32,673 bases of DNA, taken from positions 1 to 32,673 of the forward strand of contig DATKQS010000015.1 of assembly GCA_035532555.1 (NCBI GenBank), given 5' to 3'. Position 1 is the first letter of the stretch. Each line of letters begins with the position of its first letter. Of this stretch, positions 8,730 to 18,043 are shown one piece after another. Under the pieces are notes generated by a model. That model worked only from the letters and a program-made list of their open reading frames with translations. It was not told the origin of the DNA and ran no database searches. Position numbers and translations under genes: made by a program. This stretch comes from Thermoplasmata archaeon. Lineage in GTDB: Archaea; Thermoplasmatota; Thermoplasmata; Lutacidiplasmatales; UBA184.

Positions 8730-10223
8730 TCAGTATCGCGGCATCGAGGGGTCGACCTGCTTCGCCCAGGCGTCGATCCCTCCGCGTAGGTTGCGCACTC
8801 CGGAGAAGCCGAGCCCGAGGAGAAGCTTCGCGGCGGCGCTCGAACGGACCCCGCTCTTGCAGTACACCACGACGCGCCGAGCATCCGTCACCTCGTTGAG
8901 GCGGTCGGGCAGCTCGAGGCGTGGGATCAAGTGGGCGCCGGGAAGACGAACGATCTCCCACTCCTCCGGCTCGCGAACATCGAGCAGGAACGGCGGTTCG
9001 GCGGAGCTCAGTTCCTCCGCGAGCGCCTTCGCGCTCACCTCGGGCACCCCCGACGGGGCCGGGGCCGAGCCGACGGCCGGGACACCGCAGAACTCTAGGT
9101 AGTCGATGAGTCCCTTCTGCGTCGCGTGGGGACCGCAGAGGTCGCAGTCCGGGTTCTTGCGCAGCGCGAGCTCCCGGAACGACATCGCAAGTGCATCGAA
9201 CAAGAGCAGGCGTCCGACGAGGGGTTCACCGGCTCCGAGGATGATCTTGATCGCCTCGGTCGCCTGGATGACCCCCACGATCCCCGGCAGCACCCCGAGC
9301 ACACCGGCCTCGGCGCACGACGGAACGAGGCCCGGAGGCGGAGGTTCCGGATACAGGCAGCGGTAGCAGGGGCCCGCCCGGGCGTCGAAGACGCTCGCCT
9401 GCCCTTCGAACCGATAGATCGACCCATAGACGTTCGGCTTGCCGAGCAGAACGCAGGCGTCGTTGACGAGGTAGCGCGTGGCGAAGTTGTCCGTCCCGTC
9501 GATCACGATGTCGTATCCCCGAATCACGTCCATCGCGTTCGCTGAGGTGAGCGGCTCGGAGAACGCGGTCACACGGACCCCGGGGTTCATCGCCTGGAGC
9601 CGGTCACGGGCCGCGTCCACTTTCGCATGACCCACATCCGCCGTCGTGTACAGGATCTGGCGCTGCAGGTTCGAGACCTCGACCCGGTCGAAATCCACGA
9701 GGCCGATCTCTCCCACACCGACGGCGGCGAGATACAGCGCGGTGGGAGAGCCGAGCCCACCAGCGCCCACGATCAGAACCTTCGCGTCACGCAACTTCTT
9801 CTGACCTTCGACTCCGACCTCGCTGAGGAGGAGGTGGCGGCTGTACCGCAGCATCTCCTCGTTGGACAAGGCCCGCGCGCGGCTTCCGGCCGGAACGCTG
9901 CGCTCGGAGACGACGAGCGGGATTGGGGTCCTCGGTTCGACACCGCCCCCTCCGGCGATCGCGGGGACGATGGACACCACGTCGCCGTCCTTCACGGGCG
10001 TGGAGTCCCGTTCCAGGTAGCGAATGTCCTCGTCGTTACGATAGACCGTGACGAAACTGCGGAGCTTCCCCTCCGGGGTGAACAGGTGGCGACCGAGCCC
10101 GGAGTGGATGGTGGTGATCCGCCGGAGCACCTCGCCGACCGTGGCGCCCTCGACAGGGATCGTGGCCGCGCCGCCGGCGAACGAGCGTAGTGGCGTGGGG
10201 ATCTTGACCGAGACTTGTGCCAT
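8730..10223 (-). CDS. Sulfur carrier-E1-rhodanese fusion (CysO/MoaD-MoeB/MoeZ type)
   Basis: The 497-residue protein has three parts. Residues 1-94 are a beta-grasp ThiS/MoaD/CysO-like sulfur carrier ending VPAIAGGGG (glycines 91-94). Residues about 118-385 are an E1-like adenylyltransferase of the MoeB/ThiF family, with ATP loop GAGGLGS (153-159), DFDRVEVSNLQRQ, zinc cysteines C286/C289 and C360/C363, and C303 in the SCAEAGVLG loop. Residues about 395-497 are a rhodanese domain with active loop CKSGVRS (C455). E1 enzymes adenylate the C-terminal Gly of the carrier and rhodanese supplies persulfide sulfur, giving a carrier thiocarboxylate. Here the Gly-Gly end is internal, so release by cleavage, probably by the adjacent JAMM protease, or translation of a free carrier elsewhere, would be needed. 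Last gene of the operon starting at 12306. Confidence 0.92.
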   Translation of the reverse strand: MAQVSVKIPTPLRSFAGGAATIPVEGATVGEVLRRITTIHSGLGRHLFTPEGKLRSFVTVYRNDEDIRYLERDSTPVKDGDVVSIVPAIAGGGGVEPRTPIPLVVSERSVPAGSRARALSNEEMLRYSRHLLLSEVGVEGQKKLRDAKVLIVGAGGLGSPTALYLAAVGVGEIGLVDFDRVEVSNLQRQILYTTADVGHAKVDAARDRLQAMNPGVRVTAFSEPLTSANAMDVIRGYDIVIDGTDNFATRYLVNDACVLLGKPNVYGSIYRFEGQASVFDARAGPCYRCLYPEPPPPGLVPSCAEAGVLGVLPGIVGVIQATEAIKIILGAGEPLVGRLLLFDALAMSFRELALRKNPDCDLCGPHATQKGLIDYLEFCGVPAVGSAPAPSGVPEVSAKALAEELSSAEPPFLLDVREPEEWEIVRLPGAHLIPRLELPDRLNEVTDARRVVVYCKSGVRSSAAAKLLLGLGFSGVRNLRGGIDAWAKQVDPSMPRY

Positions 10224-10271: not shown

Positions 10272-10718
10272 TCAGACGGTGGCGTGGAGGGGTGAAGCCG
10301 GTCGGAGCGGGATTGCACGGAACTCTCGGGCCTCCGCCTCGAGCTCGAACGCGCCGATCTCGCCGGCACGACCTCGTTCGACGTTCTGGACGAGGTACAC
10401 GTACCAGGGCCAGGCGTGGTCCTGGTCGAACGTGGAGGGCCGTGCCGGGTGGTCCGGGTGGGAGTGGTAGAAGCCGAGGACGAGCAGCGAAGTGCCTTCG
10501 AGCCCCTCCTCGATCCGCCGCAGCTCCTCCGGGCGGATCACGAAGCGCCGCCGCCGCTCTCCCTCGTATTCGTTCGTCGCGCGCTCGATGCGCATCACGT
10601 GCCGCTCCTCGTCGCGGGCGGTGCCGACGAGGAACCCGCAGCACTCGTCCGGGTAGGTTTCCTCCCCGTGGCGGGCGATCTCTTCGATGAGCCCGGGAGC
10701 GAGGTTCGCTACCGCCAT
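10272..10718 (-). CDS. JAMM/MPN+ zinc metalloprotease (Mec-like)
   Basis: The 148-residue protein carries a full JAMM motif: Glu25 in the PDECCGF block, then H85-S-H87 followed by ten residues and Asp98. Prokaryotic stand-alone JAMM proteases remove groups attached to the Gly-Gly end of beta-grasp proteins; mycobacterial Mec releases cysteine from the CysO-cysteine adduct. The position between a cysteine synthase and a CysO-like carrier fits that job, and cutting the fused carrier behind Gly-Gly would be a second one. The ATG at 10718 overlaps the end of the cysteine synthase gene by 10 bases, which suggests coupled translation. The gap to the fusion gene is 48 bases. Confidence 0.9.
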   Translation of the reverse strand: MAVANLAPGLIEEIARHGEETYPDECCGFLVGTARDEERHVMRIERATNEYEGERRRRFVIRPEELRRIEEGLEGTSLLVLGFYHSHPDHPARPSTFDQDHAWPWYVYLVQNVERGRAGEIGAFELEAEAREFRAIPLRPASPLHATV

Positions 10719-11686
10719 CGGTCGGTCTCCTGCACCGTGGGATCCGCGGCGTCCGGCAGGATCGTCACGATGAACGCATCCGGATTCGCCGCACCGAGCG
10801 CGAGGGAGGCTGCGACGGCGGCGCCCGCCGACCGACCCACCGAGATCCCCTCTTCCCGGGCGAGCTCGCCTTGGACCTCGATCGCCACCTCGGTCTCGAT
10901 CCGCATCGTCGCATCCACCCACCGCTCCTGGTACGTCGATGGGCGCAAGGCCGACGGGAGGTGCTTGAGCCCCTCGATCCCGTGCATGGGGCCGGTCGGC
11001 TCGACGCCCACGACCCGGATCGTCGGCTGTTGTTCCTTCAGGTACCGCGCCACCCCAGAGATGGTCCCCCCGGTGCCCACGCCCGCGACGAAGTGGGTGA
11101 GTTTTCCGCTCGTCTGATGCCAGATCTCCGGGCCCGTGCCCGCATAGTGGGCCTCGGGATTGGCGGGGTTGTTGTACTGATCTGGATAGTAGTACTTCTC
11201 CGGCTGGACTTGCGAGATGCGCAGGGCCTCTCGCTGGGCGCCGTCGCTTCCCTCCATCGGGTCGGTCAGGACGATCTCCGCGCCCAGCGCTCGCATCCGA
11301 CGCAGGCGCTCGGGATGCGCGTTGCGGGGGACGCAGAGCCGTACTGGGAAGCCGAGGCGGGCCCCGAGCATCGCGTAGGCGACCGCGGTGTTGCCGCTGG
11401 AGGCGTCCACGAGCGTTCTCCCGTTCCGGAGCTCGCCCGCTTCGATGGCCTCTTCGACAATGAATAGCGCCGCGCGGTCCTTGACCGACCCTGTCGGATT
11501 GAGGAATTCGGCCTTTCCGAAAAGGCGGAACCCGCCACCGTGCCGTGCAACGATCCGATCGAGCGGGAGGAGGGGCGTGTTGCCGATCGCTCGGAGCAGA
11601 GGATCTCGGAGGGCCGTGTGTTCCGAGCCCTGGGTCCGCTCGATCGTGCGGTTCGCCCCTACCGCAGATGGATCAGATGCGAACAT
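10709..11686 (-). CDS. Cysteine synthase (CysM/CysK-type, PLP-dependent)
   Basis: From ATG 11686 the protein has 325 residues. It shows the fold-type II PLP signature: NPTGSVKDR with Schiff-base Lys69, SSGNTA substrate loop, and GVGTGGTISG phosphate-binding loop. The enzyme replaces the leaving group of O-acetyl- or O-phosphoserine with sulfur. The neighbouring carrier, E1-rhodanese and JAMM genes suggest it takes sulfur from a protein thiocarboxylate like mycobacterial CysM rather than free sulfide; this is inference from context. ATG 11686 lies 28 bases inside the end of the regulator gene, and an upstream extension in the same frame (to 11776) is Arg/Asp-rich and unlikely. Confidence 0.92.
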   Translation of the reverse strand: MFASDPSAVGANRTIERTQGSEHTALRDPLLRAIGNTPLLPLDRIVARHGGGFRLFGKAEFLNPTGSVKDRAALFIVEEAIEAGELRNGRTLVDASSGNTAVAYAMLGARLGFPVRLCVPRNAHPERLRRMRALGAEIVLTDPMEGSDGAQREALRISQVQPEKYYYPDQYNNPANPEAHYAGTGPEIWHQTSGKLTHFVAGVGTGGTISGVARYLKEQQPTIRVVGVEPTGPMHGIEGLKHLPSALRPSTYQERWVDATMRIETEVAIEVQGELAREEGISVGRSAGAAVAASLALGAANPDAFIVTILPDAADPTVQETDRWR

Positions 11687-12306
11687 CGCATCCCCCCACG
11701 GCCGATCGTGTCCTGCAGATCGACGTCCACTTGACCGATCAGGGTCTCCGTCAGGCGCTGGTCGAACACGTTGCACATCAGGCGGGTGTGAGACAGTGCG
11801 TTCCGTCGGAAAACGCAGTTCGAGCGAACGATCCGGAACCCCCCGTCCGTCATCTTCTCCATGGTGCAGTTGAATCCGAAGGCGTTGAGCGAATCGATGA
11901 GGTGGCGGGTGCGTTCCTCGAGCGAACCGTCCTTCGGGATTCCCTGGGCGATCCCATGTGCAACGCGCGCCGCCGCGCTCGCGAAGAGCTCGTTGGCGAA
12001 CTCCTCCCCCTGCCGAGCGAGGATCTCGTCCATCAGCGCATCGAGGAGGAGATCGTACCTCTTCGGGAAGAGCTCCTGACCCTCGGGGGTGAGGGCGTAG
12101 CGCTTGCGCGGGCGGCCGACTCCTTCACGACGGAACGTCGGGATCACGTATCCCCGCTCGCGCAGGCGCTCGAGATGCCCTCGAGCTGCGCTCTCTTGGA
12201 TGCCGAGGGTGTTCGCGATGTTGCGGGCCGTGCATGGGGCCTGAGCGAGTTGATCGAGAATGCGCCCCCGAGTTCCTTCGTGAGGGGCCAGATCTGCTGC
12301 GCTCAT
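11659..12306 (-). CDS. SufR-like winged-helix regulator with Fe-S-type cysteines
   Basis: The 215-residue protein starts with a winged helix-turn-helix domain (about 12-75; TARNIANTLGIQESAARGHLERL then RPRKRYALTPEG). Its C-terminal half has cysteines C147, C164, C178 and C208 in the context SNC...RLMC...MRCSHLI, as in SufR-family regulators, where such cysteines hold an iron-sulfur cluster. SufR proteins repress suf genes when clusters are plentiful. This gene is divergent from sufC and heads the cysteine operon (it overlaps the cysteine synthase by 28 bases), so it may control both. The spacing C-x16-C-x13-C-x29-C differs from the cyanobacterial type, so which residues bind the cluster is open. 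Confidence 0.8.
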   Translation of the reverse strand: MSAADLAPHEGTRGRILDQLAQAPCTARNIANTLGIQESAARGHLERLRERGYVIPTFRREGVGRPRKRYALTPEGQELFPKRYDLLLDALMDEILARQGEEFANELFASAAARVAHGIAQGIPKDGSLEERTRHLIDSLNAFGFNCTMEKMTDGGFRIVRSNCVFRRNALSHTRLMCNVFDQRLTETLIGQVDVDLQDTIGRGGMRCSHLIHLR

Positions 12307-12408
12307 CCCGTCCTACGAGCGTAACAGACGGCGGCCAAGCTTAAAGGGATTTAGGCACCGCGCTATGCTTAAATAAAGCGACCGACTCGTATCCGCCGAG
12401 GGCAATCG
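12307..12408. promoter_or_regulatory. Divergent promoter region, sufR-like / sufC
   Basis: On the plus strand TTAAATAA (12369-12376) lies 33-40 bases before sufC ATG 12409. On the minus strand CTTTAAGC (12339-12346) lies 33-40 bases before the regulator ATG 12306. GCTTAAA occurs as a direct repeat at 12339-12345 and 12367-12373. The two boxes are 30 bases apart, so one bound regulator could act on both directions. Confidence 0.65.
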
Positions 12409-13179
12409 ATGGCGGAAAAGCCCCTTCATACGCTGGTCATCAAGGGCCTCCGGGTCGAGGTCGCGGGCAAGGAGATCCTCAAGGGGGTCGATCTTTCCCT
12501 GCGGACCGGCGAACTCGTCGCCCTCATGGGTCCGAACGGCTCCGGCAAGAGCACCCTCGCCTATGCGCTGATGGGCCACCCGAAGTACAAGGTCACCTCG
12601 GGCGAGGCACTCCTCGATGGTGTGGACCTTCTCAAGATGCCGGTCGATCAACGCTCCCGCGCCGGCCTCTTTCTCGGATTCCAATACCCCCAGGAGGTCT
12701 CGGGGCTCTCGGTGTCGAAGTTCCTGTGGACCGCCTACATGCAGCGCCACACCGCCGAGACGGCGGACACCGTGGCGTTCGACAAGGACCTCAAGACCAA
12801 CCTCGGACACCTCGAAATGGAGGAATCGATGCTGAAGCGGTCCCTCAACGAGGGATTCTCCGGTGGCGAGAAGAAGCGCAACGAGGTCCTCCAGATGGCG
12901 ATGCTCCACCCCTTGTTCTCGATCCTGGACGAGCCCGACTCCGGCCTCGACATCGACGCCGTGCGCGCCGTCGGAGAGACGGTCGCCAAGCTCCACGGTC
13001 CCCAGGAAGGAATCCTGCTCATCACGCACTACCAGCGGATCCTGAAGTACGTCAACCCGGACCGCGTCTATGTCATGGTCGATGGCGTCATCGCCATGTC
13101 GGGTGGACGGGAATTGGTCGACGAACTCGAAGCGAAAGGGTACGACTGGGTCAAGGTCGGCGCCACGACGCAGAACTAG
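12409..13179 (+). CDS. sufC: SufC, ATPase of the Fe-S assembly complex
   Basis: The 256-residue protein is an ABC-type ATPase that works with SufB and SufD as the SUF scaffold in the cytoplasm; ATP binding changes the SufB-SufD interface for cluster formation. It shows Walker A GPNGSGKST (41-49), a Q-loop near FQYP (91-94), the SufC-type signature EGFSGGEKKRNE (148-159), Walker B with SILDEPDSGLD (171-181) and the switch His207 (ITHYQR). Length is normal for the family. It starts the plus-strand suf run, with sufS 42 bases downstream. Confidence 0.97.
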   Translation: MAEKPLHTLVIKGLRVEVAGKEILKGVDLSLRTGELVALMGPNGSGKSTLAYALMGHPKYKVTSGEALLDGVDLLKMPVDQRSRAGLFLGFQYPQEVSGLSVSKFLWTAYMQRHTAETADTVAFDKDLKTNLGHLEMEESMLKRSLNEGFSGGEKKRNEVLQMAMLHPLFSILDEPDSGLDIDAVRAVGETVAKLHGPQEGILLITHYQRILKYVNPDRVYVMVDGVIAMSGGRELVDELEAKGYDWVKVGATTQN

Positions 13180-13221: not shown

Positions 13222-14448
13222 ATGGACGTCCAGAAGATCCGCGAACAGTTTCCCATCCTCTCCCGCGGTGTGCGCGGCAAGCCGCTCGTGTACCTCGACT
13301 CTGCCGCGACGTCGCAGAAGCCGCGTGTCGTCATCGACGCTGAGTCCAATTTCTACCGCGAGACGAACTCCAACGTCCACCGTGGGATCTACCTGCTCAG
13401 CGAGGAGGCCACCGACGCCTACGAGGGCGCCCGGGCGCGCGTCGGCCGGTTCCTGCGGGCACCGGATCCATCCGAGATCGTGTTCGTCCGGGGAGCGACC
13501 GAGGCGCTCAACCTGCTCGCCCACGGTCTCGGCCGGAGCCGATTGAAGCAGGGCGACCGGGTCGTCGCTACCGTGAGCGACCATCACGCCAACGTGGTCC
13601 CCTGGCACATGCTGCGGGAAGAGCGAGGAACGACCCTCGAGTTCGTCAACGTGGATGATACCGGGCACCTGCGTCTAGACGAGTACGACCGATGGTTCGA
13701 TGGTAAGACGAAGGTCGTTACCCTTCCCCATGTCTCCAACGTCCTCGGCACCGTCAACCCGGTCCGCGCGATTGCGGACCGAGCCCACGCCGCCGGGGCG
13801 GTCGTGGTCGTGGACGCGGCGCAGTCGGCCCCGCACATCCCCATCGACGTCGTCGCGCTCGGGGCCGACGCCGTCGCGTTCTCAGGGCACAAGACCCTCG
13901 GGCCGACCGGCATCGGGGTGTTGTGGGCCCGGAAGGAGCTCCTAGAGGAGATGCCTCCCTGGATGGGAGGTGGCTCCATGATCGAGGAGGTGCATGCCGG
14001 TCGGATCTCGTATCGCGAGCCTCCGGCGAAGTTCGAGGCCGGCACTCCGAACATCGCCGGCGCGATCGGGCTCTCTGTCGCGCTCGACTACCTCGAAGCG
14101 ATCGGGTGGGAGGACCTCGCCCGACACGAACGATCGATGCAGGCCCGCTTGTTCCAGAACGCGGACGAACGCCTCGGGAAGAAGATCCGGATTTTTGGGT
14201 CCCGGGACGTACGTGAACGCGAGGCCGTGTTCTCTTTCGCGCTCGAAGGGATCCACCCCCACGACATCGCTTCGATCCTCGACGCGGAAGGGATCGCGAT
14301 CCGGGCGGGCCGCCAGTGCTCCCAGCCGCTCATGGATCGCTATGGCGTCGGAGCCATGGCGCGGGCGAGCCCCTATCTGTACAACACCCTCGAAGAGATC
14401 GACCTGCTCTACGACGCACTCGACAAGGTTGTCAAGATATTCGCATAA
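13222..14448 (+). CDS. sufS: SufS-type cysteine desulfurase
   Basis: This 408-residue PLP enzyme takes sulfur from L-cysteine and holds it as an enzyme persulfide for Fe-S assembly. PLP Lys224 is in SGHKTLGPTG, His121/His122 and Asp198 fit the cofactor pocket, and the active-site Cys366 is in RAGRQCSQPL. The group II pattern and the length match SufS/CsdA. It lies between sufC and sufB; the IscU-like scaffold at 17633 is the probable acceptor, since no SufE gene is seen. Cysteine made by the minus-strand operon would be its substrate. Confidence 0.96.
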   Translation: MDVQKIREQFPILSRGVRGKPLVYLDSAATSQKPRVVIDAESNFYRETNSNVHRGIYLLSEEATDAYEGARARVGRFLRAPDPSEIVFVRGATEALNLLAHGLGRSRLKQGDRVVATVSDHHANVVPWHMLREERGTTLEFVNVDDTGHLRLDEYDRWFDGKTKVVTLPHVSNVLGTVNPVRAIADRAHAAGAVVVVDAAQSAPHIPIDVVALGADAVAFSGHKTLGPTGIGVLWARKELLEEMPPWMGGGSMIEEVHAGRISYREPPAKFEAGTPNIAGAIGLSVALDYLEAIGWEDLARHERSMQARLFQNADERLGKKIRIFGSRDVREREAVFSFALEGIHPHDIASILDAEGIAIRAGRQCSQPLMDRYGVGAMARASPYLYNTLEEIDLLYDALDKVVKIFA

Positions 14449-14543: not shown

Positions 14544-14551
14544 TTTAAATA
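14544..14551 (+). promoter_or_regulatory. TATA box of sufB
   Basis: TTTAAATA lies 31-38 bases before sufB ATG 14582 in otherwise GC-rich sequence. It indicates that sufB has its own promoter rather than depending only on read-through from sufC-sufS. Confidence 0.7.
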
Positions 14552-14581
14552 CCATCTGGTGCTTGAATTGACGGGACCACC

Positions 14582-15994
14582 ATGGCGCAGGGAGCTCAGG
14601 AGTTCATTCCGCTCGACTATACTCGCTACGACTTCAAGGACCCGGAGACGTACAAACTCCGCTCCGGGAAGGGCCTCTCGGTCGAAACGATCCACCAGAT
14701 CTCCGATTGGAAGAAGGAGCCGGACTGGCTCCGGGAGTACCGCCTGCGCGCCTACGAGCATTTCGTCAAGCGCCCGATGCCCGACTGGGGTCCCAAGCTC
14801 GACGAGCTCGATTTCGACTCCTATACGTTCTACGCCGCCCCGATGGGCGAGGACGAGCCCAAGCGCAAGTGGGAGGACCTGCCCGCGGACATCAGGAACA
14901 CGTTCGACAAGCTTGGGATCCCCAAAGCCGAGCGCGACTTCTTCGGGGGCGTCGGGGCCCAATACGACAGCGGTACCGTCTACCACAAGCTCCGCGAAGA
15001 CCTCGAGAAGAAGGGGATCATCTTCTGCGACACGGATACGGCGGTGCGGGAGCACCCCGACATCGTCCGGAAGTACTTCGGCAAGATCGTTCCGTACAAC
15101 GACAACAAGTTCTCCGCGCTCAACAGCGCCGTCTGGTCCGGAGGCAGCTTCGTGTACATACCGCCCGGGGTCGACTGCGGCATCCCGCTGCAGGCCTACT
15201 TCCGCATCAACGCGAAGAACGTCGGGCAGTTCGAACGCACGCTGATCATCGCCGACAAGGGCGCCAAGATCCACTACATCGAGGGCTGCACCGCTCCGAT
15301 CTACTCGACGGACTCGCTGCACGCGGCCGTCGTCGAGGTCGTCGCCGAACCGTACGCCAAGGTGCGCTACACGACCGTGCAGAACTGGTCGAAGAACGTG
15401 TACAACCTGGTGACGAAGCGGGCCGTGGCGTACGAGAACTCGCTCGTCGAGTGGGTCGATGGCAATATGGGCTCGAAGATCACGATGAAGTACCCCTCCG
15501 TCTACCTCAAGGGTCGCGGCGCGCGCGCCGATATTCTCTCGGTCGCCTTCGCGAGCGCCGGTCAGATCATCGACAGCGGGGCGAAGGCGGTGCACTCGGC
15601 ACCGGACACCTCGAGCAAGATCATTTCGAAGTCGATCGCGATCCGGGGCGGCCAGACGAGCTACCGCGGCCTCCTCCACGTCGCGAAGGGAGCCACCGGG
15701 GTCAAGGCCGCCGTCCGCTGCGACGCCCTGCTCCCCGACGACATGAGCCGGTCGGACACGTACCCGTACAACGAGATCCACGAAGAGGACGCGACGATCA
15801 CGCACGAGGCCGTGGTCGGCAAGATCGGCGAGGAGCAGATCTTCTACCTCATGAGCCGCGGGCTCACGGAGTCGGACGCGATCCACCTGATCCTGATGGG
15901 ATTCCTCGCCGAGTTCTCCAAGGAGCTGCCCGTCGACTACGCGCTCGAGCTCAACCGTCTCATCCAGCTCGAGATGATCGGCGCGGTCGGTTAG
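14582..15994 (+). CDS. sufB: SufB, Fe-S cluster scaffold
   Basis: The 470-residue protein is the core scaffold of the SufBC(2)D complex, on which clusters are built from persulfide sulfur and iron. The central right-handed beta-helix is flanked by helical ends. Cys380 in AAVRCDALL corresponds to the essential Cys of E. coli SufB, Cys236 (IEGCTAP) to the internal sulfur-accepting Cys, and Glu409 (HEAVVGKI) to a conserved acidic residue near the SufD interface. Residues 194-199 (PPGVDC) are also a family hallmark. It is convergent with sufD, their stops separated by 72 bases. Confidence 0.97.
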   Translation: MAQGAQEFIPLDYTRYDFKDPETYKLRSGKGLSVETIHQISDWKKEPDWLREYRLRAYEHFVKRPMPDWGPKLDELDFDSYTFYAAPMGEDEPKRKWEDLPADIRNTFDKLGIPKAERDFFGGVGAQYDSGTVYHKLREDLEKKGIIFCDTDTAVREHPDIVRKYFGKIVPYNDNKFSALNSAVWSGGSFVYIPPGVDCGIPLQAYFRINAKNVGQFERTLIIADKGAKIHYIEGCTAPIYSTDSLHAAVVEVVAEPYAKVRYTTVQNWSKNVYNLVTKRAVAYENSLVEWVDGNMGSKITMKYPSVYLKGRGARADILSVAFASAGQIIDSGAKAVHSAPDTSSKIISKSIAIRGGQTSYRGLLHVAKGATGVKAAVRCDALLPDDMSRSDTYPYNEIHEEDATITHEAVVGKIGEEQIFYLMSRGLTESDAIHLILMGFLAEFSKELPVDYALELNRLIQLEMIGAVG

Positions 15995-16066: not shown

Positions 16067-17458
16067 CTACCGGAGCTTCGCGTCGAAGCGCCAATCGGGA
16101 GCCGCGGCCGTGCCCGCCACCTCGAGTTCGGGGAGCGGAGGGTACGCCGGGTCTCCCCAGTCGATCTCCTTTCCCTCCCAGCGGGCGGCGAGGAGGGGAT
16201 ACAGGGTCTCCCGCAGGCCGGCGATCGGCGCGCGGTCGAGCACGTAGGATAGGAAACCCTCCCCGATCGCCCGCACGGACTCCGACGGACTGATCCCTCG
16301 GGATTCTAGGTAGAAGATCTTCTCCGGGTCCACCGGAGCGACGCTGGTGGAGTGCGTCGCCTTGACGTCGGGGCAAAGGATCTCGAGGATCGGGATCGTG
16401 TCCGAGCGCGCCCCTCGCGAGAGGAGCATCGCATGTTCGGAGATGTAGCTCAGCGTCTTGCGCGCCAGCGGCTCGATCCGGACGAGGCCGCGGCTCATCC
16501 CGCGCGATTCGTCTCGGAAGACCCCCCGCGTGATCGACTGGCCGTGCGTGTCCTCGCCACGGTGCGTGATGTGCACATCGCTGTCGTAGGATTGGTGATC
16601 CCTTCCGTAGAAGGTCTGTAGATCGTCGACGCTCGATCCATTCCCGATCAGCGTCGTCTGGTTGCGTCCGCGCGTCGAGAACCCTCCGAGACCGGCCCAG
16701 ATCCACGCGAGGCGGCTGCGGCGCTCGGTCGTCGCCGAGCGACGGTAGAACGAGACGGTCCGACCATCCGGAGCGTGCACCGAGAGGTGGACGACCTTCG
16801 CCTCGGCCGCGAGATCGTAGTCGACCGACGAGCCGTAGAAGCGCTGCTCGGTGGGGACCGGCCCGTGGCAATAGAGTTCCTCGGTAATGAGGACCTGCGC
16901 GCGCTCGCCGATCCGGATCGATCGGCGGATCGACTGGGCCTCGTGCGCCTGCGAGAGCACGGTGATGTCCTGGACCCGGATCGGTGTCGGGCATCGGTCC
17001 GGGATCTCGAGCCGGTACCCACGGTTCAGGAGCGCGATGCTGAGCGCCGAGAGACGATCCGCGGGGGTCTCCGAGCCGCGCATCAGTGTGGGGAGCGCCG
17101 TCGCGCCGGCCTTCCAGGAGTCGATCAAAGCGTTCGCGCTTACGCCGAGTTCGCGCAGCGCGGGAGGGATCTCGATGCGGGTCCCCGACCCATCATGGAC
17201 GATGCGGACTGCGTCGGGCAGCGCCGGCGGGAGCGCCACGGACGCTCCATGGGCGACCGGATCGATGCCGCTCAGGTCGACCCCCGAGAAGTACCCATAG
17301 TGGCGGTACAGCGGGTTGGGTTCCATGGGGAGCTCGAGGAAGAGCCGATAGGCCTCGGCTCGGTGCTGAGCCACCGCCTCCGGGTCGGCGAGCGATTCGG
17401 AGAGATCCCGAACCTCTTCCTCCCGGAGCCATGGTCGCTGCGTCGTCGCCGTCGCCAT
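16067..17458 (-). CDS. sufD: SufD, partner subunit of the SUF scaffold
   Basis: The 463-residue protein belongs to the SufB/SufD family. The C-terminal block (KATHSTSVAPVDPEKIFYL, then SRGIS) matches SufD; His369 corresponds to the His of E. coli SufD at the cluster-forming interface, while the Cys usual two positions before it is absent. It forms a heterodimer with SufB, and the complex binds SufC. Unusually for the complex, it is on the strand opposite to sufB and sufC, with its own promoter. ATG 17458 lies 23 bases after a TATA box, so the transcript is probably leaderless; a longer upstream frame (to 17671) is not coding. Confidence 0.93.
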   Translation of the reverse strand: MATATTQRPWLREEEVRDLSESLADPEAVAQHRAEAYRLFLELPMEPNPLYRHYGYFSGVDLSGIDPVAHGASVALPPALPDAVRIVHDGSGTRIEIPPALRELGVSANALIDSWKAGATALPTLMRGSETPADRLSALSIALLNRGYRLEIPDRCPTPIRVQDITVLSQAHEAQSIRRSIRIGERAQVLITEELYCHGPVPTEQRFYGSSVDYDLAAEAKVVHLSVHAPDGRTVSFYRRSATTERRSRLAWIWAGLGGFSTRGRNQTTLIGNGSSVDDLQTFYGRDHQSYDSDVHITHRGEDTHGQSITRGVFRDESRGMSRGLVRIEPLARKTLSYISEHAMLLSRGARSDTIPILEILCPDVKATHSTSVAPVDPEKIFYLESRGISPSESVRAIGEGFLSYVLDRAPIAGLRETLYPLLAARWEGKEIDWGDPAYPPLPELEVAGTAAAPDWRFDAKLR

Positions 17459-17467
17459 TGGATTTAG

Positions 17468-17488
17468 ACACTCAGGAGTGTTTATAAA
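17468..17488 (-). promoter_or_regulatory. sufD TATA box overlapping an inverted repeat
   Basis: TTTATAAA (17481-17488) is 23-30 bases upstream of the sufD start. Between the box and the start lies ACACTC-AG-GAGTGT (17468-17481), a 6-base inverted repeat that touches the TATA box. A protein bound there would block transcription, so it is a candidate operator. Confidence 0.65.
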
Positions 17489-17632: not shown

Positions 17633-18043
17633 ATGGCGTACGACCTGTATCAGGAGATGATCTTGCTTCACTACCGGAACCCGAAGAACTTCGGCCCCCT
17701 ACCCTCCGCGGACCTGGAGGGCGCTGAATCCAACCCTACCTGCGGGGACCATATCGAGGTGCGACTCAAGCTCGACCCCGACCACCGCAAGGTCGAGGAG
17801 ATCCGCTTCACCGGCGACGGATGTGCGATCAGTGTCGCGAGCACCTCCCTCCTGACGGTCCAGGTCGCGGGAAAGTCGCTGGAGGAGGTCCGAGCCATCA
17901 CCCGAGACGACGTCCTCAAGCTGCTCGGGATCCCCCTCTCCCCCGTGCGCTTGAAGTGCGCTCTGACGGGATTCGCGGCGCTCGGCAAGGCGCTGCACTC
18001 CTCCGGCCCATCCACGATCCGTCCCACCGCCCAGGGAGCGTAA
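17633..18043 (+). CDS. sufU: IscU/SufU-type Fe-S scaffold
   Basis: The 136-residue protein contains the three conserved cysteines of the IscU/SufU fold: C37 in TCGDHIEV (with Asp39), C64 in GDGCAISVAS and C109 in RLKCALTGF. It either builds a cluster or, as in Gram-positive SufU, accepts sulfur from SufS. Position next to the suf genes and the lack of SufE favour the latter. ATG 17633 was chosen over the upstream frame start because the first residues (MAYDLYQEMI) match the family N-terminus. The symbol sufU is inferred from context. Confidence 0.92.
   Translation: MAYDLYQEMILLHYRNPKNFGPLPSADLEGAESNPTCGDHIEVRLKLDPDHRKVEEIRFTGDGCAISVASTSLLTVQVAGKSLEEVRAITRDDVLKLLGIPLSPVRLKCALTGFAALGKALHSSGPSTIRPTAQGA

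Follow-up and report, generated by a model that had tools for sequence, protein, structure and literature searches.

In bacteria, expression of the suf genes for Fe-S cluster assembly is kept in check by SufR, whose cluster-bound form represses and whose loss of the cluster releases the promoter (PMC8593673, PMC10848736). In Synechocystis, SufR (sll0088) is encoded divergently from suf, and its holo form represses both suf and its own gene (PMC8593673, PMC7058544). The Mycobacterium tuberculosis protein (Rv1460) requires C203, C216 and C244 (PMC6034842), and its apo form derepresses suf (PMC10848736). The bacterial SufR site is an inverted repeat, CAAC-N6-GTTG, with a 6-base spacer (PMC8593673, PMC11995493); in Streptomyces avermitilis and Corynebacterium glutamicum SufR is a repressor acting at this palindrome over the -10 region (PMC11995493). 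IscR, too, responds to Fe-S clusters and represses both its own gene and genes for Fe-S assembly (PMC8593673). A search of the open-access literature, including SufR with Thermoplasma, COG2345 and suf with archaea, found no archaeal SufR-type regulator.

The window analysed here, 32,673 nucleotides long, is contig 15 of an assembly of 1.6 Mb, 96% complete, from a Thermoplasmata archaeon of an acid environment. Its nearest named relatives are metagenome-assembled genomes of Thermoplasmata. The window encodes a regulator of 215 amino acids, R1 (11659-12306, minus strand), in which one of these relatives, 'Candidatus Lutacidiplasma silvani', is about 61% identical. Like Synechocystis SufR, R1 has a winged helix and C-terminal cysteines and is divergent from suf; unlike it, R1 does not reach the family cut-off, spaces its cysteines more widely, has another putative half-site, lies at a promoter where the site overlaps archaeal TATA boxes, and is linked to an operon of cysteine and E1 genes.

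The regulator, its neighbours and a second homologue

R1 is the first gene of a compact minus-strand operon. It is followed by a cysM-type PLP cysteine synthase (10709-11686, ATG at 11686), which overlaps R1 by 28 bp, then by a JAMM/JAB metalloprotease of Mec- or desampylase-like type (10272-10718, ATG at 10718), which overlaps cysM by 10 bp, and by a MoaD-MoeB(E1)-rhodanese fusion (8730-10223). The original prediction had placed the regulator at the head of a cysteine operon, and these overlapping frames with the fusion gene downstream bear it out. The predicted separation from sufC also agrees, with 102 bases (12307-12408) between R1 and the sufC ATG at 12409. On the plus strand, divergent from the R1 operon, follow sufC (12409-13179; TIGR01978, 316.6 bits), sufS (13222-14448; TIGR01979) and sufB (14582-15994; TIGR01980), all three above the cut-offs of their models; sufD (16067-17458) is on the minus strand and sufU (17633-18043) again on the plus strand. 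The sufB of the window is uninterrupted; in several congeners (L037, L050, L051 and L057) sufB is split at a single position by roughly 1 kb of extra sequence, probably an intein. Comparative genomics of the divergent pair, proposed with the original prediction as a check, was run on 66 archaeal loci drawn from a species-level collection, and in all of these Thermoplasmata loci (66/66) R1 is divergent from an adjoining sufC.

The N-terminal half of R1 is an ArsR-type winged helix (residues 11-78; Pfam HTH_5, 33.8 bits, above cut-off) and the C-terminal half a putative sensor domain with C164, C178 and C208, the combination of winged helix and three-cysteine set that SufR requires. The match to the SufR_cyano model TIGR02702 is full-length but weak (residues 16-212 on model positions 6-208), at about 44.4-44.8 bits against a curated equivalog cut-off of 178.8 bits, a value passed in none of 390 genomes of the phylum. 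Among R1 orthologues of the Thermoplasmata set, where the position is covered, C164 and C178 are each kept in 65/65 and C208 in 63/63; in a wider set of 56 diverse sequences the first two are invariant and C208 nearly so. Four cysteines had originally been proposed as cluster ligands. All are present in R1, but C147 is kept in only 45 of the 65 orthologues and is otherwise A, S or T, and the four-cysteine set (C147, C164, C178, C208) was dropped for this reason. C25 is variable among the 66 archaeal orthologues. R1 is thus likely, from its sequence, to be a three-cysteine protein of SufR type. Its spacing, C164-X13-C178-X29-C208, departs from the C-X12-C-X27-C of bacterial SufR, including Rv1460, by one or two extra residues between cysteines; Rv1460 further differs in being the first gene of its suf operon, not divergent from it, and in having an operon free of cysteine genes. 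Neither half-site of the bacterial operator CAAC-N6-GTTG was found in the R1/sufC gap. Because its model score and its exact cysteine spacing both place R1 outside SufR as defined by sequence, and because the bacterial operator is lacking, R1 seems best termed SufR-like.

Structure prediction bears on what these cysteines might sense. The AlphaFold2 model of R1 is a confident one (mean pLDDT 87). Its best fold matches, all at TM values below 0.45 on the query, are to Bet3/BcsD/PoxR-type (phenol-sensor) domains and to winged helices of PadR/ArsR type. No solved SufR was seen among the structure-search matches, a search of viral structures returned mostly winged helices, and in a Pfam scan of all members none of the leading families was a named domain for the C-terminal half. 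The three cysteines could accordingly respond to zinc, to a thiol or persulfide state or to a sulfur metabolite: the modelled C-terminal domain resembles Bet3 and the phenol sensors PoxR/MopR and not known Fe-S regulator structures, sequence does not reveal a cluster, and the genes downstream of R1 concern sulfur supply. We nevertheless consider a non-Fe-S signal unlikely, since the cysteines align with those of the SufR family, whose members bind a [4Fe-4S] cluster (PMC6034842, PMC8593673), and relatives of R1 in family f9, described below, sit with Fe-S proteins.

The original prediction spoke of one SufR-like regulator, but the genome encodes two homologues of SufR. The second one, R2, is encoded away from suf (contig C9, 64682-65272; L069:8659-9318, minus strand) and is the better match to TIGR02702, at 99.8 bits, with the canonical C-X12-C-X27-C spacing. 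In a tree that took in one bacterial suf-adjacent relative and no characterised SufR, R1 and the other suf-adjacent archaeal proteins lie on the opposite side of a 99/96 branch from the R2-type proteins, with which the bacterial relative, from Chloroflexota (L138, Anaerolineae), groups. This split suggests that suf is guarded here by the diverged homologue and not by the canonically spaced R2. High-scoring R2-type matches occur in only some congeners. At the R2 promoter congeners have kept a motif, TTTGTnAAy...GTGTATAAA, which shares one half-site with the dyad upstream of R1 described below, hinting at a possible cross-talk between R1 and R2.

A conserved dyad over the suf promoters

Alignment of the R1/sufC gaps revealed a single conserved block in sequences that are otherwise unalignable. 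This block is a dyad, TTTAGGCACCGCGCTATGCTTAAA (12350-12373, arms 12350-12357 and 12366-12373), which fits the consensus TTTAnnCA-N8-TGnnTAAA with 0 mismatches and which we propose as the R1 operator. Its right arm overlaps the conserved sufC TATA box CTTAAATAAA (12368-12377, plus strand), and its left arm, with TAAA at 12350-12353, is the conserved part of the TATA-like region of the regulator/cys operon (12340-12356, minus strand). A TATA box for each direction, 30 bases apart, had been predicted. Both are present, and the minus-strand box CTTTAAG (12340-12347) lies about 28 bases from the plus-strand box; the regulator-side box is weak, however, and was dropped as a conserved element, not being kept in relatives. 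The first account of the locus holds as an observation but had overlooked the dyad, its copy at sufD and R2. A second conserved block, ACGGTATCGGCTCG (12376-12391, plus strand), is found in most congeners between the TATA box and the sufC ATG, perhaps as an initiator or an element of the leader. As with SufR of S. avermitilis and C. glutamicum, the palindrome proposed for R1 overlaps a core promoter; theirs is a bacterial promoter, and the regulon described is the suf operon.

The perfect dyad occurs once in the whole 1.6-Mb genome, in the R1/sufC gap. Allowing one mismatch adds a single site genome-wide, a putative second operator copy in the sufD promoter (17463-17486), where a minus-strand TATAAA lies 23-28 nt upstream of the sufD ATG. 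This copy has the form ACAC-N6-GTGT, with the same 6-base inner spacing as the Synechocystis operator. With up to two mismatches five sites are found genome-wide, three of them inside the 5-kb suf cluster; against these three in the window, 0.01 were expected from shuffling. The three two-mismatch sites lie in the sufS-sufB gap, in the R2 promoter and within an ORF on contig C19. The last was rejected as an operator and taken as chance. The first, a degenerate dyad at the sufB TATA (14544-14567) restricted to this species and its nearest relatives, two of them near-identical, was retained in the regulon only as a weak member.

The same pattern recurs across 101 relatives searched, in which the perfect dyad is found essentially once per congener genome, at the R1/sufC gap. 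With up to one mismatch, the 34 congener genomes typically have two sites each, R1/sufC and a sufD-like one, against three control matches in all. Counted by locus, the dyad is present in 65 of 67 R1/sufC gaps and upstream of sufD in 28/34, with its left arm forming the sufD TATA box at a mostly near-fixed distance; in the other six of the 34 loci it was not found upstream of sufD. Since both arms coincide with TATA-like sequence, the block might be read as nothing but two core promoters (BRE/TATA), with no operator. We give this reading hardly any credence: TATA alone would give many matches in a genome where one or two are found, and the CA/TG positions and the symmetry of the arms persist across families whose spacers differ. 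Such is the case in families f11, f19, f24 and f27, in which the arms are conserved in the R1-suf gap and the spacer has diverged; in the last three R1 adjoins suf without cys genes.

In family f9 (L062, L223; G045, G450) the R1-like gene is not near suf, and the dyad is still present upstream of it. Here the gene is followed in its operon by a 4Fe-4S ferredoxin-domain gene, and a carbon monoxide dehydrogenase-like gene lies close by, these identities being as read directly from the sequence. The f9 loci L062 and L223 may represent a second Fe-S-related use of this type of regulator and operator. In the window's own family, genera g27 and g28 retain the gene order but gave no match to the dyad, and none was found near the Chloroflexota SufR-like gene, which stands beside sufC/sufB.

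The dyad therefore accompanies the regulator in other families as well, also where no suf genes are near, and this is the best available argument that R1 binds it. Another factor, be it R2 or a general iron or redox regulator, might instead occupy the dyad and leave R1 some other role, an idea that draws on the better SufR score and canonical cysteines of R2 and on the related half-site GTGTATAAA conserved at its promoter. Such an arrangement appears highly improbable to us, given that high-scoring R2-type matches are patchy among congeners, nearly all of which have R1 and the dyad, and that the dyad goes with R1-like genes also where suf is absent from the neighbourhood.

The sulfur-carrier and cysteine operon

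In the mec-cysO-cysM route of M. tuberculosis, a cysteine synthase, a JAMM protease and a sulfur carrier are encoded together and cysE is unneeded. The R1 operon brings together the cysteine synthase, JAMM protease, sulfur carrier and E1 that such a CysO/CysM/Mec pathway requires; it differs from the mycobacterial genes in that the carrier is fused to the E1 and a rhodanese and that a SufR-like regulator heads the operon. Among the 34 genomes of the genus set a cysE gene was found in a single one, which is not the present genome; this absence fits a candidate CysO-type cysteine route. The VPAIAGG motif of the carrier lies at the MoaD-MoeB junction, and the fusion is open in 37/43 loci, so the GG is internal and not a free C-terminus. 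A free GG would need cleavage, and the adjacent JAMM protease might be the releasing enzyme.

The content of the operon varies among relatives. In the 39 loci with at least 4.5 kb of sequence downstream of R1, 17 have cysM, JAMM, MoaD and MoeB, 10 lack cysM, seven have MoaD and MoeB only, two MoeB only and three none of these; a MoeB-type E1 is thus retained near R1 in 36/39. Among 34 congener genomes of better quality, about 14 have the operon-type cysM, and most others have nothing closer than a distant paralogue at another place in the genome. Roughly one congener in two has lost cysM and none the suf linkage, so the cysteine part is facultative. Outside the genus, the full cys operon follows R1 in genera g27 and g28 (L212, L219), and in family f11 (G047, G058, G456) R1 is divergent from a merged operon, sufC-sufU-cysM-moaD-moeB-sufB-sufD-sufS, with JAMM at its end in two of the three.

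These counts invite the view that R1 controls only itself and the suf side, the cys and E1 genes being downstream passengers with no physiological coupling. The suf linkage is invariant and that of cysM is not (17/39 loci, with three of 39 having none of the four genes), and most other Thermoplasmatota families have R1 and suf without cys genes. We regard the passenger role as distinctly improbable all the same: the overlap of frames makes it likely that these genes are transcribed together with an autoregulated gene, the E1 is kept in nearly all of the loci, the operon also stands behind R1 in g27 and g28, and the placing of cysM-moaD-moeB inside the suf operon of f11 means that the association exists in two arrangements.

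A candidate switch for cluster assembly and sulfur supply

Our preferred reading, to which we assign a probability of roughly 0.74, is that R1, an archaeal protein of SufR-like type, senses Fe-S clusters, represses its own gene and closes the suf and sulfur-carrier/cysteine operons jointly through the dyad. An R1 dimer would bind at 12350-12373, covering both the TATA box of sufC and its own operon's TATA region, and would block TBP/TFB on both sides at once; it would act likewise at the sufD promoter through the second dyad copy. When Fe-S clusters are sufficient, R1 would carry a cluster on C164, C178 and C208 and repress. On cluster loss, by iron or sulfur limitation, oxidants or NO, apo-R1 would leave the DNA, and sufCSB, sufD and the cysM/JAMM/MoaD-MoeB-rhodanese operon would rise together, the latter supplying cysteine and protein-bound sulfur. 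What is seen directly in sequence is the order of the genes, the conserved cysteines, and a dyad that is nearly unique and inherited together with R1. From them we infer DNA binding, repression and cluster binding by R1, as well as read-through from the regulator promoter into the cys operon.

A repressor that excludes TBP/TFB fits this archaeon because the dyad lies over TATA boxes, and a shared switch would account most simply for a single near-unique dyad that overlaps the promoters on both sides. The idea of one switch joining sulfur supply to cluster demand was already part of the original prediction and appears strengthened by this conserved candidate operator, by the divergence kept in every locus and by the merged operon of f11; it needs amending in that cysM is facultative and that sufD is included too. 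IscR, a member of the Rrf2 family, would resemble R1 as an autorepressor of Fe-S assembly genes, the latter by prediction, and is unrelated to it in sequence and operator.

At the scale of the phylum, we lean, by a little over even odds, towards an archaeal SufR-like branch with its own operator, TTTAnnCA-N8-TGnnTAAA over TATA boxes, as the general suf switch of Thermoplasmatota, into which at least two families drew sulfur-carrier and cysteine genes as one control unit. Work on R1 would start from a specific protein, a 24-bp candidate operator and a small regulon, all testable in vitro, and the locus would offer a concrete example of sulfur supply coupled to Fe-S cluster demand at one dyad.
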